Source of the DNA: a virus | DNA length: 24,001 nt | Virus record (IMG/VR): IMGVR_UViG_3300021392_000012 | Coordinates: 1-24,001 of that record | Direction: 5' to 3' (one strand) | Shown: positions 4,513-17,295 of the stretch, in pieces | Position numbering within the stretch: position 1 is the stretch's first letter | Layout of the letters: each line of letters opens with the position of its first letter | Made by a program: the position numbers and the translations under genes | The notes under the pieces: model-generated | Databases searched by the model: none | Told to the model about the DNA's origin: nothing | The model's input: only the letters and a program-made list of their open reading frames with translations

Positions 4513-6501
4513 TCACAGCTCCATCGCTACTTCTATAAAATCTGCCGCTGTCACCGTTGCTAGTTCCTCCCACTCTTCATCAGTGAGGATGTCATTGCTA
4601 TCAGTACGAATTTCGGAGCGCATCACCTCACGTATGCCACCAAAGAATTCAGGGGGCATCACCTGCTTGTAAATCGCCTCGGCTTCTTCCTTGGACTCCA
4701 CACCAATAAAGAGCTTCTCTTCATCGAACTTCCCATCAATATACTGTGCGATTGCAAATATCTTCGGTGAGTTCAACTTAGTCCCCACATACACATCCAA
4801 TGCCATACCATCAGCACCTTTGGTCTTTTGGATGTGTCCATAGCCAACAGGCAGCATCTTACCGTGACGTAGCTGGAAAGGAAAGTATTGAAGTCCAATA
4901 TTAAACCCATTCCACTCAATGATCCGCTGTACCGGAGTGGCATCATCTGACCTAAGCTGACGAGCCGACTCTACAGGCTGGTCATGCCCTGCGACTTTCT
5001 TGTTCCGTGCTTTGCTAATTGCGCTCGTGCGATCGCTAGCCTCAACCACTGTTGGGGTATTTCTTCCTTGGAACCACACCCCCCATAGAGCATCTTCTCT
5101 CTTTGAGTCATCCTCACTACTAACGTCATCACTCAAAACAAAGTCTGGGGAAAACTGGGAACCTTCGTACCCTGAGCGCACTTCTTCTGGAGTAATTGCT
5201 CCAATCTCAGTCAGGGTCTTACTTCTGTCAGCTGCTAGCTTCTCGTATTCCATGCGTTCTGTATCTGTTAGCTGCAAGTCGAAGGGAACTTTGATGTCCC
5301 ATGATTCGGGAATTTTTCCCTTTGATGGGGAATCTTTGGCAAGAAAAGTATAAATTAGCAACTGCCGTAAGTTACTTACCCAGCTGTGAGCATAGTCCTG
5401 CACAAGGATTGCCCACTCAGAGCGCATAGCCAACCCTTGATTATTAGTCAGTCCCTGGCTCCCTATCTCTCCGAATAACTTAAACTTTGGAATACCTGAT
5501 GCTGCCGCCCAACGATTTTCTAGGGATTCCATAATGTCCTTTGCCCCACCGTAGGAACGAGTTACACTCCCCGGTTCCTCATTTTCCAAATCGTAGTAGA
5601 TACCCCTAACCACAGACTTCCCCATATCCAAAGCAAGGGAGCGGTTGATAATTTGCTGCTGACCTGCTTGAGTTCCTTTCTGTTTGTCTTGTAGGAGTAT
5701 CTGTCCCAAACCTTTCATACCAAGGGTAAATACATCGTAATCAGCCAACATTGCGCTGCCAGCTTTGATACCCTGGAGCCAATCAATGTAAGCATCGTAC
5801 ATTGCTTGGATAACGCTCACACCGTCGTCATTCAGTCCTGTTTTCAGGTAGTTCCGTCTACTGTAGATTCGATTACCCCAAAATGGCAGAATTCGAGACT
5901 TGTGGATTTTTGCCCCATACTGTTGGTCTGATTCTACAGAATACAAACGGTAAAAGTTGGGTTGGCGAGTCCTGTTATTGCCCCAATCTGGGTAAAGCTC
6001 CCAGCAGTCATAAACCTGGAGCCATCTAATAGATTTAATATTATTTTTATCAACGGGTTCACTAAATTCTTTCCCGTCATCTATACCAATTACTATATAA
6101 GCTTTGCCAAATTGACGAGCTAGGATAGCTGCAATAGGGAAAGCATCATTAGCACCATAAATATCCGCTTCATCTTCTTCGGTAGTTTTGTCCTCTCTGC
6201 TCCCCAGCTCTGCAATGTATTCCATCATCAAATCAGGAAGATTATCACCTGAAGAATTGTTAGCTATTGCCAAGTGGAACCAAGCTTTAGCAGCACATTC
6301 AGGATAAAGGAACACAGCCTTCCTGAGCAACTCGTCTCGGTAGGGTAAAGCTTCTAGGGATTGCCTAGTGAGTCGTGTTTTACTTGTGTTGATAGTAACA
6401 TTCTCAGTTTTACTTCGAGATGTCCCAATCCCGGTGTAGGGGTTGCTTAAAGCTGCAAAAGCTCCAAACAAAGCTTGAGAATCAATTCGCAGTTCACTCA
6501 T
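4513..6501 (-). CDS. DUF1073-type portal protein with C-terminal InPase-like domain
   Basis: A 662-residue protein. Residues about 30-470 look like a DUF1073-family portal, the dodecameric ring through which DNA enters the head: WLQVYDCWELYPDWGNNR, SRILPFWGNRIYSRRNY, WAAASGIPKFKLFGEIGSQG, and DLQLTDTERMEYEKLAADRS before the C-terminal end of the portal part. Residues about 475-520 form a linker with ALWGVWFQGRNTPTVVEA. Residues about 529-632 form a separate domain with KGADGMALDVYVG (561-573) and DEEKLFIGVESKEEAEAIY (593-611). These are the signatures of the phage 'InPase' (inorganic pyrophosphatase-like) domain. The gene lies between a connector-like protein (ATGA overlap at 6498-6501) and the protease, as expected for a portal. 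The function of the fused domain is unknown. Confidence 0.8.
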   Translation of the reverse strand: MSELRIDSQALFGAFAALSNPYTGIGTSRSKTENVTINTSKTRLTRQSLEALPYRDELLRKAVFLYPECAAKAWFHLAIANNSSGDNLPDLMMEYIAELGSREDKTTEEDEADIYGANDAFPIAAILARQFGKAYIVIGIDDGKEFSEPVDKNNIKSIRWLQVYDCWELYPDWGNNRTRQPNFYRLYSVESDQQYGAKIHKSRILPFWGNRIYSRRNYLKTGLNDDGVSVIQAMYDAYIDWLQGIKAGSAMLADYDVFTLGMKGLGQILLQDKQKGTQAGQQQIINRSLALDMGKSVVRGIYYDLENEEPGSVTRSYGGAKDIMESLENRWAAASGIPKFKLFGEIGSQGLTNNQGLAMRSEWAILVQDYAHSWVSNLRQLLIYTFLAKDSPSKGKIPESWDIKVPFDLQLTDTERMEYEKLAADRSKTLTEIGAITPEEVRSGYEGSQFSPDFVLSDDVSSEDDSKREDALWGVWFQGRNTPTVVEASDRTSAISKARNKKVAGHDQPVESARQLRSDDATPVQRIIEWNGFNIGLQYFPFQLRHGKMLPVGYGHIQKTKGADGMALDVYVGTKLNSPKIFAIAQYIDGKFDEEKLFIGVESKEEAEAIYKQVMPPEFFGGIREVMRSEIRTDSNDILTDEEWEELATVTAADFIEVAMEL

Positions 6502-10073: not shown

Positions 10074-13000
10074 CTAATTCTTTCCCACCAGCACCAAATC
10101 TGATGTTGATTTACCATTTTTGGGAATAGTCGGACATTGCAGATTGGCTAAACGTTGCTCAATGCGATCGCGCACCTCCACCAGTTGCTCAACACTCATC
10201 TGGTCAATGTTGCTCGTGAAGCCAATTATGTAATCTTCGACTGGTGGGGATTTTGGGACTGATGTATGATGCCTATTGCCATTGTTACTGTGATCATTGC
10301 CCTCCGGAAGAGTGCCATTGCTATTATTGGCAGGTAATGGTTGTGAATTTTCTACATCCGCTAGGGGTAGCCCTGAGGTTTCCCCATTCTCTGTTTCCTG
10401 TTCTCCATTCCCTGTTTCCTGCTTCCCCTTCCCGATACTTCCGACCTGCATCGCAGCAGTAGTGCCGTGTTTGGTGGTGTAAGTTCGGGTTTTGGGTTTA
10501 TCCTCACTACGAATTTTCGCAGTGAGACTCTTGCGAATATTCCGCACTGTTGCCTCGGAAACCTTACATTGTCGGGCAATCTGATAATTACTCCAACTAC
10601 TCCATTCCTGATCTCTGAGGAGCATCATCACAGCACGGCGCTTATCTGCACGGCTACGAGGCTTAGCTGCTTTATGATCAGCGTTGGCGGCAGCAGCGTA
10701 TAATACGGCATCGCGACGGGTTCCCTGGTGAATGATTACTTGAATATCCTCAATCCCTAATTCTTCATAAGCCTTGCAACGGTGGAAACCGTCAGCTAAC
10801 CAGTCGTTTTCCCCATCATAGAAAACGTCAGCCGGATCTAGTTCAGCGCCTTCTTCTATCGCTTCTTTCAATGTAGCGACGTGAGCCATATCAAGTTTCT
10901 CACGGGGCTGAGTTCCCCCATCGCGGCGTATTTGGGCAATGGGGAGAGCGGTAGGAGTTAGAAGTTGAGACTTGAGGAAGGAAAATTGGGATTTAGATTT
11001 TGTTATCTGAGGAATCTGGGGGACACCATGCACCCGACCATGCTTACTAAAAGCTTTCTGAAATTTCTCAAAATTCTCCCCTAGATAAAATACTGAGCTA
11101 GCAAAGGGAGCGGAGGAACTATTTCCCTTAAACTTGAGCCTTCCATTCCACAAGCACTTGGGGAACTGATCAAGTTTCTGATACCATTTGGTGTCAGTGG
11201 CAGATTTTACTAGCACCACTGCCTCTTTCACTCCACCAGCTAAGTATTCTTCTAGGAGCTTATCCACCCAAGAGGCTGTGGCAGAGTATGGGGGATTCAG
11301 GTAAATCCTGCCCTCACCAATTGCCCAAGATTTGCTCAATCCATCATCTTCAATAGTGTAATGATTGGCAGCGGGGATATTTGGAGCTGTGTGGGAGTTT
11401 GAGCAAGGATCAAGGTCGATGGTTCCAAGGGTTGCGATGGTCGCTTCGCGAACCGCCGCAGGCATCGCAGCTTCTTTCACTTCATCGGGACTGTAATGCT
11501 CGTCAGTTTTGCTGCTGGTTTGTACAGATAGAGCATGATTACTCTTGCAGTCCTGGCTTTTCTGTTCTGATTCAATCGGTTCAAACTTGAACCGAATCAC
11601 CCAAACCACTTTTTGATCATCACCATCAAAATAATGCTCAATGAATTCAGCCAGAGTCAGTTCAGGGAAACCTTCTTTGATTAGGTCGGCCATTGGCATA
11701 TCAGCCAATTTTTCTTGGTAGGGTTTTTCTGTTAGGGTCAGCCAGCCTACTTGTTTACCTCCATATCGCTTATCCTTGTCTAAAGCTTGAAACCTTGCCC
11801 CTTCCTCAAAAATCTTGATAAATTTCAGAGCATGAGAATCCTTCCAAACTCGACGAGTAACTGATTTTCCTTTAAGTAGTTGGGGATAGGTTTTCCCAAA
11901 ACTGATACTCAAACCAGACTCTTTAACATCATCTCCCCACTCCCCTATCCTTCTTACCAATTCCCCGACTTTGTCAGCCCAATCCTTCAATTCTTTCTTT
12001 TGATACTCAATAGTAGGCATCGCATTCTCACAGCCCATCTCCTGCACAATTTCCCCACTCTCATCCAGCTCAGCTGTGTGGTTGGAATTGGTTAGAGTTG
12101 GGGTAATCTGTCCGATTGGCTTAAGAAAAAGCTCTACAAACTTGGGAGGGACAGAATATCCCAAAATCGAGCCTGCCACCCCCACTTCTTCTGGAAACTC
12201 GTACCAATCTGAAAAGCTTTGAAGGCGGCGCACACACTCAATAGTGACCTGTTTTACCTGGCCAGACGCTCCTACGTCGCTACCACTGACGCTATCAGGG
12301 AGCCAGATGTCAGCGAATTTAGAGCGACTATTATTTCTGTGATCAGTGAAATGCGATCGCAAAATTGTGTTTGCGGGTTTAAAACTAGGTATCGCAGCAT
12401 ACCTACTGCGGACACCAACGCGATCAATTAGCAGTGGCTCTGAAGCATTATTCTCCAAAAACTTGTCAACTGAACGCCGTTGTCCCTTGAGCAGTTCCGA
12501 GTCAGGCAAACTAGGAATCAAGTCCTTAATCGCTTCGTACCAGCTAATTTTTGCAGATTTTTCGGGTAGCTCCAAAGGTGGTTGGGCATCACGGGATGCC
12601 CAGGCAATAAACCTTTTCCGCGCCTGGGGAACACCATAATCTGACATATCCACAATGGTCGATTTGAGATTGTAGCCAAGAGACGGGACAACAAACCCAA
12701 TCTGCTTCCAGCTCTGAGATTTTTGATAAGCTGGGACATTCTCCAAGACAAAGTGCTTGGGCTTAATTTTCTTAATTGCGGCTACTACTGCTTTCGCTGC
12801 TGCCACATCATCATCCTGCTCGGTACCACCCTTCTTGGCAGCACTGAAGTTGGAGCACATTGGGGATGCCCATAGAATATCTGGCTCTTGGGGAAATCCA
12901 GGGAAATCCTCTGCGGCTAGTTCCTGCACTGTTCGACGAATAACCCGACATTGAGGGAAATTAGCCTCGTGAGCATCACTCATAGCCTCGCTCAAATCAG

Positions 13001-13340
13001 GCTTGTCTGGGTTATATTCAACCGCCAATAACGGTTCAATTCCCGCGTCCATCAGTCCAGCCTCGACACCGCCGCCACCAGAGAACAAAACTACTGCTGT
13101 AGGTTTCTTCTCGACTTTGGCAATTAACTCCATGCAATATGGGACAAGACCATGCCCTGCCTCGTGTACCCAAAATTGAGGCATTCCACCAGGGGAGAGA
13201 AACTTCTCGGTAATGATGCCAATTTTTCCATTCTTCATAGTAGCAATCATGCCCACTTCTGATGAGTCGTAAAGCTCCATTAAATGCTGCTTATTTGCAG
13301 TTTCTTGGCTTGCAGTTTTGGTATTTTTGCGTCGTACCAT
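10074..13340 (-). CDS. Four-part DNA modification protein: C5-MTase, ASCH, Dam N6-MTase, ParB/HTH
   Basis: A 1088-residue fusion. Residues 80-408 form a cytosine-5 methyltransferase: motif I LFSGGGGVEAGL (85-96), motif IV SPMCSNFS with C162 (PMC instead of the usual PPC), ENV (200-202), VPQARKR (237-243), RRLQSF (371-376) and GYSVPP (394-399). Residues about 470-590 resemble an ASCH/PUA-like domain (SVTRRVW ... VVWVIRF). Residues about 615-770 form a Dam-type N6-adenine methyltransferase with DLDPCSN (642-648) and LNPPYS (681-686). Residues about 795-940 form a ParB-like domain (WLADGFHRCKAYEELG; RADKRRAVMMLL) plus HTH (NYQIARQCKVSEATVRNIRK). Residues 1-78 include a small beta-rich segment of unknown type. 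GGAGGTGA precedes the ATG at 13340. All visible catalytic residues are present, so both methylases may be active; target sites are unknown. Confidence 0.85.
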   Translation of the reverse strand: MVRRKNTKTASQETANKQHLMELYDSSEVGMIATMKNGKIGIITEKFLSPGGMPQFWVHEAGHGLVPYCMELIAKVEKKPTAVVLFSGGGGVEAGLMDAGIEPLLAVEYNPDKPDLSEAMSDAHEANFPQCRVIRRTVQELAAEDFPGFPQEPDILWASPMCSNFSAAKKGGTEQDDDVAAAKAVVAAIKKIKPKHFVLENVPAYQKSQSWKQIGFVVPSLGYNLKSTIVDMSDYGVPQARKRFIAWASRDAQPPLELPEKSAKISWYEAIKDLIPSLPDSELLKGQRRSVDKFLENNASEPLLIDRVGVRSRYAAIPSFKPANTILRSHFTDHRNNSRSKFADIWLPDSVSGSDVGASGQVKQVTIECVRRLQSFSDWYEFPEEVGVAGSILGYSVPPKFVELFLKPIGQITPTLTNSNHTAELDESGEIVQEMGCENAMPTIEYQKKELKDWADKVGELVRRIGEWGDDVKESGLSISFGKTYPQLLKGKSVTRRVWKDSHALKFIKIFEEGARFQALDKDKRYGGKQVGWLTLTEKPYQEKLADMPMADLIKEGFPELTLAEFIEHYFDGDDQKVVWVIRFKFEPIESEQKSQDCKSNHALSVQTSSKTDEHYSPDEVKEAAMPAAVREATIATLGTIDLDPCSNSHTAPNIPAANHYTIEDDGLSKSWAIGEGRIYLNPPYSATASWVDKLLEEYLAGGVKEAVVLVKSATDTKWYQKLDQFPKCLWNGRLKFKGNSSSAPFASSVFYLGENFEKFQKAFSKHGRVHGVPQIPQITKSKSQFSFLKSQLLTPTALPIAQIRRDGGTQPREKLDMAHVATLKEAIEEGAELDPADVFYDGENDWLADGFHRCKAYEELGIEDIQVIIHQGTRRDAVLYAAAANADHKAAKPRSRADKRRAVMMLLRDQEWSSWSNYQIARQCKVSEATVRNIRKSLTAKIRSEDKPKTRTYTTKHGTTAAMQVGSIGKGKQETGNGEQETENGETSGLPLADVENSQPLPANNSNGTLPEGNDHSNNGNRHHTSVPKSPPVEDYIIGFTSNIDQMSVEQLVEVRDRIEQRLANLQCPTIPKNGKSTSDLVLVGKN
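10377..10436. repeat. Degenerate 7-base repeat inside the linker of the modification fusion
   Basis: On the minus strand this stretch reads as imperfect 7-base units (GGAAACA, GGGAATG, GAGAACA, GGAAACA, GAGAATG). It encodes residues 969-988 (KGKQETGNGEQETENG), a low-complexity linker after the ParB/HTH module. Because 7 is not a multiple of 3, three units make a 7-residue protein period. Confidence 0.7.
11434..11468. repeat. 35-bp cyanobacterial dispersed-type repeat inside the Dam domain
   Basis: The stretch has ends GCGATG and CATCGC in inverted orientation and a core TTCGCGAACCGCCGCAGGC. It looks like the GCGATGCC...GCATCGC family of short dispersed repeats common in filamentous cyanobacteria. 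It lies in frame in the modification fusion and encodes residues about 624-635 (AAMPAAVREATI), just before the Dam motif DLDPCSN. Confidence 0.55.
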
Positions 13341-14681: not shown

Positions 14682-16028
14682 TTAGGTCAAACTTAGGAAC
14701 TGACTGGTCTCAGGTTTGAAAAGGCATTTCACAGTTCCCGTTTTTCCACCCCGATGCTTGCCAACAATGATTTCGGCTATCCCTTGGTCTGGGGTGTCTG
14801 GGTTATAGTAATCGTCTCGGTAGAGAAGCATAATCACGTCAGCTGCTTGCTCTAATCCCCCTGATTCTCTGAGTTGGGAAATAGTTGGGCGCTTATTTTT
14901 CTGCCCTTCTACTGAACGATTGATTTGAGCTAAGGCAAGGAAGGGAACATCAAATTCTTTAGCTATCGATTTGCACCCGTTGGCAAGCTTATCAAGCTCA
15001 GATACTCGGTTAGTCCTACCGTCCTCCGAGCCTAGTAGTTGGAGATAATCAAGTATCACCAATCCAGGATGCCCGTAGGTGGCAGTAGCACGTCTAATAC
15101 CTGCTCGTATTCGCATCAGACTTAACCCAGAGCCTGGGGTGTCATCAATCCAAAGTGGAGTATGCCCAATCTTGCCAACGGATTGAGCTAGCTGATCATA
15201 ATCCGCATCTGTTAGAGTTCCTTCCTCAATTAGCCTGCTATCGACACCAGAATCTCTGGCAATAATCCTTGTCATCAGCTCATCCCGATCCATTTCAGCA
15301 GAGAAGAAAATGACAGGTTGACTCTGTAAAACTGCTATTTGGTGGGCTAGCCAAACTGATAGTTGAGTTTTTCCAATCCCAGAGCGACCGGCAACCACAT
15401 AGAGTTTTTTCTTCTTGAGCCCACCAACTAGATTATCTAGGTCATAGATCTCAGTCCTTAACCCCAACTCCTGAACCCCAATCTGCTTGAAAATCCTCGT
15501 GGCAATATCCCCAGGGGTTTCAATATTGGTAGACGACCCCTGCTCCGACAACTTGAAAATCTTCTGTTCGCTATCGTCAAGAACATTTTCCAATTCGGTA
15601 GATGTTTCATAACCCATCTGCACAATCTCGTTGCCAGCCTTAATCAATTGGCGACGAGTAAACTTGTCCATCACCAACTCTGCGTATCGGTCAATATTAA
15701 CCGCTGATACAGTACGTTCAACTAGCTGTGCTAATTTAACCTGACCTCCAATTTTCTCCAAGGTATTGTGGTCATACAACCAGCTGGTAACACTCATCAA
15801 ATCCGTTGGTTTACCCAACAGATACAGCGATAGTGCAGCCTCGTAAATACTCCTGTGAGCATTGATATAGAAAGCCTGTGGGTACAAAATATCCACAATC
15901 CGACTCATAGCTTCTGGATCTAGCAGAATCCCTCCCAGGATTGCCTCCTCTGCATCAATGTTCTGAGGGGGTAAGGCGTTACCTCCAAGAGCTTGAAAAC
16001 TGACAATGTTGTTTGTATCTGCGTACAT
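14682..16028 (-). CDS. dnaB: Replicative DNA helicase, DnaB family
   Basis: A 448-residue hexameric helicase that unwinds the fork. The N-terminal domain (LPPQNIDAEEAILGGILLD, residues 19-37) and the RecA-like domain are both complete: Walker A GRSGIGKT (214-221), FFSAEMDRDEL (241-251), Walker B LVILDYLQLL (323-332), QINRSVEGQKNKRP (368-381) and LRESGGLEQAADVIMLLYRD (386-405). Length matches bacterial DnaB, with no intein. It starts five bases after the initiator-like gene stops (TAG, then GTAA, then ATG), so both are likely made from one message. Phage-encoded DnaB can replace the helicase-loader strategy of lambda P. Confidence 0.95.
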   Translation of the reverse strand: MYADTNNIVSFQALGGNALPPQNIDAEEAILGGILLDPEAMSRIVDILYPQAFYINAHRSIYEAALSLYLLGKPTDLMSVTSWLYDHNTLEKIGGQVKLAQLVERTVSAVNIDRYAELVMDKFTRRQLIKAGNEIVQMGYETSTELENVLDDSEQKIFKLSEQGSSTNIETPGDIATRIFKQIGVQELGLRTEIYDLDNLVGGLKKKKLYVVAGRSGIGKTQLSVWLAHQIAVLQSQPVIFFSAEMDRDELMTRIIARDSGVDSRLIEEGTLTDADYDQLAQSVGKIGHTPLWIDDTPGSGLSLMRIRAGIRRATATYGHPGLVILDYLQLLGSEDGRTNRVSELDKLANGCKSIAKEFDVPFLALAQINRSVEGQKNKRPTISQLRESGGLEQAADVIMLLYRDDYYNPDTPDQGIAEIIVGKHRGGKTGTVKCLFKPETSQFLSLT

Positions 16029-16032
16029 TTAC

Positions 16033-17295
16033 CTAAAACTCCATTACTTCTTGCATCCATTGGGGAACTTCTGATAGGGCAAGCTCACCGCTCCTAACCA
16101 ACTCTGGTAGACAATCAGGAATCAGCCTTTTATTGCCTTTGGGGGTATTTCTAATCCGCCTTAATAGTTTTTCTTTCTGTTCTGCTGCTTTCTCTTCTGG
16201 GGATGGTGGCTTGCGGATTGTGTATGAGGGGGCTGTGAGGGGCTGTGAGAGTTGTTTATCTTCCTTTGAAGCAGAGTAAGCATCCCACTCGATAAGAAGC
16301 TCGTCACGGCGCTTAAAATCGTATTTCCCAGCTGAGATGTGCTTCCGAACCTTCGTGATCAAGTCTCCGTTTATTAATCCCTGGTAGGCGGGGTAGTCTG
16401 ACAAAGACTTGGACATCCACTCTTCAAACCCCTGCTCAAACTGTCTCGGACTCTTGCTAGTCTCCCACGGCAGATGGTCACTCCCGTCAAGATCATTTTG
16501 GTAACGAGAACCATTCTCAATCGGGGCAGCGGAATCTTTGATCCTTTGGAGAGTCTGGTGGGTTGGGTTTAATTCTTCCTTTTTTTGATCGACTGAAGAG
16601 GAGAGTATCTCGGTTACCTCTTCTTGTCCGGAGGAATTTTCTTTACACACACTCTCTTGGGTGGGGGGTGGGGGGGAGTGTATGTGTGTGGTCTCTGAAG
16701 TAGTCTCTGAAGTAGTCTCTGTATATATGGAGTGTTTGGCGCTTTCCGCCATTTCTGTTTGGCGCTTTCCGCCATTTCTGTTTGGCGCTTTCCGCCGTTC
16801 TAGTTTGGCGCTTTCCGCCATTTTTGTTTGGCGCTTTCCGCCATTTTTGTTTGGCGCTTTCCGCCGTTCTAGTTTGGCGCTTTCCGCCATTCTAGTTTGT
16901 ACAGTATCTTCAACTCCTTCAAACCCTGACTCGGATGAAGTTTGAGCGGCAATTGTCTCAAGCAAAACTTCGGTATTAATGCGGTAAAAAAGCTTGCAAG
17001 GAACGCCACACTTCTTTTCCTGCAAGAGTTTCTTCTGTTTGAGCAGCCTCCTTGCAGTCTCCTGCTCACGTCGTGTTAACGCAGTTTCCTCGTACCATTC
17101 TTTAGCTGTTTTGTAGATCCAGCTATCCTCATCCTTTCCTCTCGGAGTCCAATAAAATAACTGGCTAAGGAATAGTCCAGCTGTCACACTTCCAGCTATT
17201 TTGGCAAAAATGCGATGATAGGCAATTGGTCGCTCCAGCAGTACCTGGAGATACCTGTACCGCTCTTGCGGATCCAGAATATTTTTAGATATCAT
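16033..17295 (-). CDS. Lambda O-like replication initiator with internal repeats
   Basis: A 420-residue protein. Residues about 20-115 look like a winged helix of the phage initiator/DnaD-RepA N-terminal type (RPIAYHRIFAKIAGSVTAGL; LFYWTPRGKDEDSWIYKTAKEWYEETALTRREQETARRLL). Residues 136-187 are a protein repeat with 23-residue period (MAESAKLERRKAPN.NGGKRQT). A low-complexity stretch follows (TETTSETTSETT, then PPPP), then a charged C-terminal part (about 270-420) that includes FEEWMSKSLSDYPAYQGLIN. It lies directly upstream of dnaB, as lambda O lies before P. It should bind the embedded iterons and load the helicase; this is inferred from architecture. The ATG at 17295 has only a weak AAGTGA upstream. 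Confidence 0.75.
   Translation of the reverse strand: MISKNILDPQERYRYLQVLLERPIAYHRIFAKIAGSVTAGLFLSQLFYWTPRGKDEDSWIYKTAKEWYEETALTRREQETARRLLKQKKLLQEKKCGVPCKLFYRINTEVLLETIAAQTSSESGFEGVEDTVQTRMAESAKLERRKAPNKNGGKRQTKMAESAKLERRKAPNRNGGKRQTEMAESAKHSIYTETTSETTSETTHIHSPPPPTQESVCKENSSGQEEVTEILSSSVDQKKEELNPTHQTLQRIKDSAAPIENGSRYQNDLDGSDHLPWETSKSPRQFEQGFEEWMSKSLSDYPAYQGLINGDLITKVRKHISAGKYDFKRRDELLIEWDAYSASKEDKQLSQPLTAPSYTIRKPPSPEEKAAEQKEKLLRRIRNTPKGNKRLIPDCLPELVRSGELALSEVPQWMQEVMEF
16659..16731. other. G-rich tract, 12-bp repeats and TATATAT beside the iterons
   Basis: Next to the iterons, on the downstream side in gene direction, the plus strand carries GGG-T-G6-T-G7 (16659-16676), enough G runs to form a quadruplex. 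Next come 2.6 copies of GTCTCTGAAGTA (16691-16721) and TATATAT (16722-16728). It encodes the low-complexity protein stretch TETTSETTSETT and a proline run. It may be the unwinding or structural part of the origin, as lambda has an AT-rich segment on one side of its iterons. Confidence 0.45.
16735..16895. other. Seven 23-bp iterons inside the initiator gene: candidate replication origin
   Basis: Seven direct repeats with an exact 23-base period start at 16735, 16758, 16781, 16804, 16827, 16850 and 16873. All share TTTGGCGCTTTCCGCC; the last seven bases vary among ATTTCTG, GTTCTAG, ATTTTTG and ATTCTAG. Each unit also holds a small dyad (GGCG-CTTTC-CGCC). Copies 1-3 and 4-6 form two near-identical 69-base superunits. 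There are no unique spacers, so this is not a CRISPR array. Repeats inside an initiator gene directly before a helicase gene match the layout of the lambda origin. On this analogy it is a replication origin. Confidence 0.7.

Follow-up and report, generated by a model that had tools for sequence, protein, structure and literature searches.

Our analysis indicates that this phage very probably has its replication origin inside its own initiator gene, where iterons that the initiator would bind are followed by a putative DNA-unwinding element. The candidate origin, originally predicted from the iterons of the window (the whole stretch of DNA analyzed, 24,001 bp from an IMG/VR virus record), gained support from the presence of such repeats in homologous genes and from covariation between the iterons and a helix of the initiator. 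We infer that the unwinding element is an array of 12-mers, absent from the original prediction, which lies directly downstream of the last iteron on the gene strand. The features are as follows.

16733..16899, minus strand: seven 23-bp iterons (TRF, repeat search and exact-word search; kept in 97 homologous genes)
16722..16733, minus strand: TATATA-rich junction from the last iteron to the 12-mers (sequence; stability profile, near the gene's weakest duplex)
16688..16721, minus strand: array of the 12-mer CAGAGAYTAC, three copies at 12-bp spacing (TRF and word search; conserved across phages)
16033..17295, minus strand: initiator gene, 420 aa (ORF, PHROG 9773, AlphaFold2)
17035..17073, minus strand: putative recognition helix RREQETARRLLKQ, codons 75–87 (AlphaFold2 and covariation; R76 covaries with the iteron half-site)
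14682..16028, minus strand: dnaB replicative helicase (Pfam DnaB_C 9.5e-78, DnaB 1.5e-29)

The iteron array and the initiator gene

The prediction of seven direct repeats of exactly 23 bp, each with a dyad, held in both respects. Seven identical 16-bp cores (TTTGGCGCTTTCCGCC) start at 16735, 16758, 16781, 16804, 16827, 16850, and 16873, every start-to-start spacing being 23, and no other occurrence was found in the window even with two mismatches. TRF gave the array a period of 23 with 7.3 copies and a score of 258. The unit reads TGGCGGAAAGCGCCAAACnnnnn on the gene strand, with a CGGCGG start in two copies, and its dyad is TGGCG-GAAAG-CGCCA. Exact matches to the dyad core GGCGCTTTCCGCC number seven in the window, all of them in the array; when up to three mismatches were allowed there were 12 matches against 3.65 expected, a number that no shuffle reached. 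Translation of the unit in three frames gives MAESAK, RRKAPN, and NGGKRQT, and the protein does contain the expected 23-residue repeat (MAESAKLERRKAPNKNGGKRQTK), which is one DNA repeat unit read in three frames.

The repeats lie, as predicted, in an initiator-like gene directly upstream of dnaB, which is 4 bp downstream of the initiator gene end. The initiator protein matched PHROG 9773 (replication initiation O-like; E 9.4e-37, residues 15–201), a family matched by all 36 aligned members, and three further PHROG families related to it, while the Pfam scan of the protein gave no match and the PDB sequence search nothing useful. AlphaFold2, run with the 36-row alignment, predicted a confident domain up to about residue 120, in which helix 75–87 followed by two strands forms a winged helix; the repeat-encoded linker had low confidence and the C-terminal part was helical. 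The predicted layout is thus a winged-helix N-domain (about residues 20–120), the linker encoded by the repeats, and a helical C-domain. Fold matches in the PDB were weak and generic, with many regulators among them as well as the RepA_N initiator domains 5kbj, 4pql, and 4pt7 (E 0.017, not significant).

The genes downstream of the homologues encode DnaB or DnaC-like or P-like loaders. The GC skew of the window changes sign near 17 kb, but this switch coincides with divergent transcription and is therefore not independent evidence. Rfam and tRNA scans were empty. Elsewhere in the window, a 1,088-aa protein (10074–13340, minus strand) joins C5 cytosine methylase and Dam N6-adenine methylase domains, a portal protein (4513–6501, minus strand) has an extra match to an inorganic pyrophosphatase-like domain, and the heptamer ATTACTC is repeated in tandem at 2721–2814 (TRF, 13.4 copies).

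The 12-mer array and the weak duplex

Two copies of the 12-mer in the window are exact (16712–16721 and 16700–16709) and the third (16688–16697) has one mismatch. Homologues were collected by tblastn against named phages (52 records, among them phages of Synechococcus, Vibrio, Salmonella, Acinetobacter, and Pseudomonas) and by searches with an alignment as query (80 viral and 80 genome loci); a single-protein query found no viral relatives, whereas the alignment query did find some. One homologue belongs to Synechococcus phage Yong-L1-251, whose listed host is the laboratory cyanobacterium PCC 7002. These sets come from pattern-based retrieval, and the pattern of the genome scan fixed TRxE with x free. 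Hosts beyond Cyanobacteriota and Pseudomonadota are suggested by MAG contigs (e.g., L111 and L144), which are possibly misbinned.

CAGAGAYTAC is found in most homologues, whatever their iteron sequence, and 97 of the 142 distinct homologous genes have at least two such words. Successive copies in the homologues lie 12 bp apart in 114 cases, 11 bp apart in 13, and 10 bp apart in 8, and 45 of 95 genes have a distance of 23 bp from the start of the last iteron to the start of the first 12-mer. When viral contigs were searched by pattern for a pair of 12-mers, at least 119 stretches matched. Among the matches listed were 80 loci, 62 of which lie in ORFs that match the N-domain HMM; most of the remaining 18, judged by eye from their translations, resemble diverged winged-helix initiators, the exceptions being a few fragments without the N-domain (such as L178 and L224) and an unrelated ORF of 6,360 bp (L249). 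Upstream of the 12-mers in most of these 18 loci there are iterons of quite different sequence with a spacing of 21–24 bp; the iterons thus change and the 12-mer does not. No 12-mer pair was found in the sampled genomes (292 and 274) beyond the known carriers G002 and G003. BLAST with the array as query gave no matches in phages or plasmids, a result that we attribute to probable low-complexity masking and do not read as absence. Among the listed papers of the open-access literature, to which the search was confined, we saw no description of CAGAGAYTAC, so priority is uncertain.

Codon use in 104 T-E-[TI]-T units, defined by their peptide, was nearly fixed (ACA 60/60, TCA 21/21, GCA 17/17, GAG 104/104, ACT 59/62, ATT 37/37), although codon choice is mixed elsewhere in the genes that carry the 12-mer. 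The third base of the fourth codon is free and an exchange of T for I is tolerated. The near-fixed codons argue for selection on the nucleotide sequence, which could act on RNA instead of DNA; selection on the peptide may also play a part because the frame is always the same at a spacing of 12.

In 64 of 85 genes, the 30-bp stretch with the lowest computed stability lies no more than 40 bp from the first 12-mer; a rough proportion (81 bp out of about 1 kb of gene) would lead one to expect about 7 such genes. A predicted unwinding region thus adjoins the iterons, at a site that is only moderately AT-rich (58%–64% AT on average).

The strongest competing explanation accepts the iterons as the origin and gives the 12-mers another role, as starts for primase, as a site for a host factor, or as a signal in the mRNA. 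The 12-mer stays the same where iterons and recognition helices differ, which makes a different reader likely, and its constraint is visible at the sequence level only. Yet the same sequence occurs in phages of cyanobacteria and of proteobacteria, whose host factors differ, and both its abutment to the iterons (at the offset of 23) and the weakest duplex fit an unwinding element. We regard another role for the 12-mers as a real but lesser possibility.

It is improbable that the repeats are operators for the initiator's own transcription and that replication starts elsewhere. Winged-helix proteins are often regulators, as were many of the PDB fold matches, but we rejected this explanation because the array stands in the middle of the gene, about 400 bp past the start codon, beside both the weakest duplex and a second element that is nearly universal, and because the family is annotated as replication initiators, whose genes are followed by those of a helicase or a loader.

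Covariation between the putative recognition helix and the iteron half-site

In this helix, the residue next after "TR", which is R76 in the window, varies together with the half-site of the iterons: R goes with CGCC or CGAC, Y with AG, AA, or CA, K with GG, T with TG, and S and D, in most cases, with CG. In the reduced set of 69 genes, iteron position 11 was G in 26 of the 27 genes with R at residue 76 and in 5 of the 42 with another residue (Fisher 6e-13), the PWM and the covariation both being computed on one gene set. The full best tree gave 13–17 independent pairs (C12 with R 12.7:0, G11 with R 10.7:0), which is weaker evidence than pairs on supported branches; this tree has few of those, and 3 independent pairs fell on well-supported ones. 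The covariation is good but not final support for base-specific reading of the iterons by this helix. The initiator gene therefore holds tandem repeats that are putative binding sites of its product, covariation being the evidence for the binding itself.

Conservation of the iterons as DNA

The original prediction also held that selection acts on the DNA repeats and that the protein segment is a by-product, and it proposed an alignment of homologous initiator genes as a check. When this was done, the period of 22 or 23 and the logic of the core were kept in three frames and the peptides differed. The strongest lag was 23 in 97 of the 142 distinct homologous genes and 22 in 12. A trained matrix mapped 433 iterons in 97 homologous phage or prophage genes, with a spacing of 23 in 284 cases, 22 in 48, and 21 in 4. 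These iterons are distributed over the reading frames as 141, 133, and 159, and 88 of the 97 genes use all three frames. After reduction of the set at 85% identity, 64 of 95 genes showed a 22/23 periodicity stronger than in any of 200 synonymous-codon shuffles. The information at conserved iteron positions was 1.37 bits for the third codon base and 1.32 bits for the first and second; third bases are as conserved as the others, which argues that the DNA and not the peptide is selected. Comparison of the homologues therefore strongly supports the view that the iterons are maintained as DNA, with the linker peptide as a by-product. A repeat of the protein, that is, a low-complexity linker grown by slippage with incidental regularity in the DNA, would suit the 69-bp in-frame expansion described below and the low confidence of the linker in the AlphaFold2 model, but it is most improbable and was rejected, because a single DNA motif yields three peptides that differ, conservation extends equally to third bases, synonymous shuffles are exceeded, and the iterons covary with the DNA-binding helix.

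Iterons or 12-mers are absent from some homologues, and several have no repeats at all (e.g., L112, L145–L147, L154, L160); L112, from a Moorena MAG, has a low-complexity EPEPKP repeat in the middle of the gene, where iterons would stand. Three loci from Burkholderiales and similar MAGs (L140, L148, L165) have a double winged helix, 23-bp repeats of the CGCC type, and a TRREQET helix without 12-mers. L135 likewise has 23-bp repeats without 12-mers, and several of these four loci have two tandem winged-helix domains. In L018 and L098 the winged helix and the iterons are separated, at about residues 140–240, by an HNH-like segment (CHVCDQAI...FDHVIPLSKGGGHT), which looks as if it were a homing-type insertion.

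The 69-base superunits, predicted as a hint of recent expansion, were recovered by TRF (period 69, 2.4 copies, 95% match) and agree with a length change in a close relative. L094, from a Symploca MAG, has an N-domain 94% identical to that of the window and four iterons instead of seven; its first 12-mer is 69 bp nearer the gene start, a difference of one in-frame 69-bp step. This one resolved length change amounts to three units, as 23 is not divisible by 3. Three relatives with a 22-bp period differ by 66, 198, and 264 bp, all multiples of 66. In two further pairs the differences, 36 and 45 bp, keep the frame without amounting to whole iteron triplets; the rule of three therefore describes a tendency and is not a law.

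Comparison with known origins

The candidate origin of the window is a variation on the known plan of an origin within the initiator gene, represented by lambda ori/O and RepA_N. The predicted likeness to lambda O/ori stood as plan and mechanism and failed as sequence family. In lambda, as in the window phage, ori lies in gene O, with dyad-bearing iterons in the middle of the initiator gene and an AT-rich unwinding tract after them (PMC7466680). Both phages have a helicase-linked gene downstream of the initiator, which in lambda encodes the loading partner P and in the window DnaB itself. The lambda iterons have start-to-start spacings of 20, 24, and 23, and ACTATTACA after the iterons is common to lambda and several homologues. 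Lambda O falls outside the sequence family, the N-domain HMM giving no match to it at E ≤ 10 with filters off, and no 12-mer array was found after the lambda iterons within one mismatch.

In initiators of the pSK41-type RepA_N group, boxes within the rep gene are bound by a winged-helix N-domain, and the linker, whose coding sequence holds the origin, can be dispensed with (PMC5703833); semi-palindromic repeats surround an A tract (PMC7145576). The window initiator may resemble them, given the weak fold matches noted above, but had no match to RepA_N in Pfam at E ≤ 1. The origin of RK2 lies outside its initiator gene, and TrfA is a plasmid Rep of another family than the window initiator. RK2 oriV has iterons beside repeated 13-mers, one strand of which TrfA binds specifically (PMC4081077). 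The candidate origin of the window likewise has iterons beside an array of short repeats, and by analogy we propose that a strand may be captured at its 12-mers.

A model of origin opening and its implications

In the mechanism that we propose, the N-terminal winged helix would bind the seven iterons, with a base-specific reading that the covariation backs, probably as a dimer on each dyad. The assembled complex would then melt the adjacent TA-rich junction and the 12-mer array, and one exposed strand of the CAGAGAYTAC repeats may be held by the initiator or a partner. The gene order suggests that the neighbouring phage-encoded DnaB would be loaded at the opened 12-mers. There is an even chance, in our estimate, that CAGAGAYTAC is the host-independent origin-opening element of a large superfamily of phage initiators with a readable helix–iteron code, and that their origins can be predicted from sequence.

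The two-part layout, a repeat matched to the protein and then a near-invariant 12-mer at the weakest DNA, is shared by phages whose bacterial hosts differ widely. With this layout as a signature, origins may be located from sequence in phages of cyanobacteria, of proteobacteria, and perhaps of further phyla, and the protein–DNA code, one helix residue against two bases, would predict which initiator reads which origin. In the iterons, moreover, a single DNA element clearly overrides coding constraint in three frames. The 12-mer, constant amid changing surroundings, makes the way in which such origins open a pointed question.
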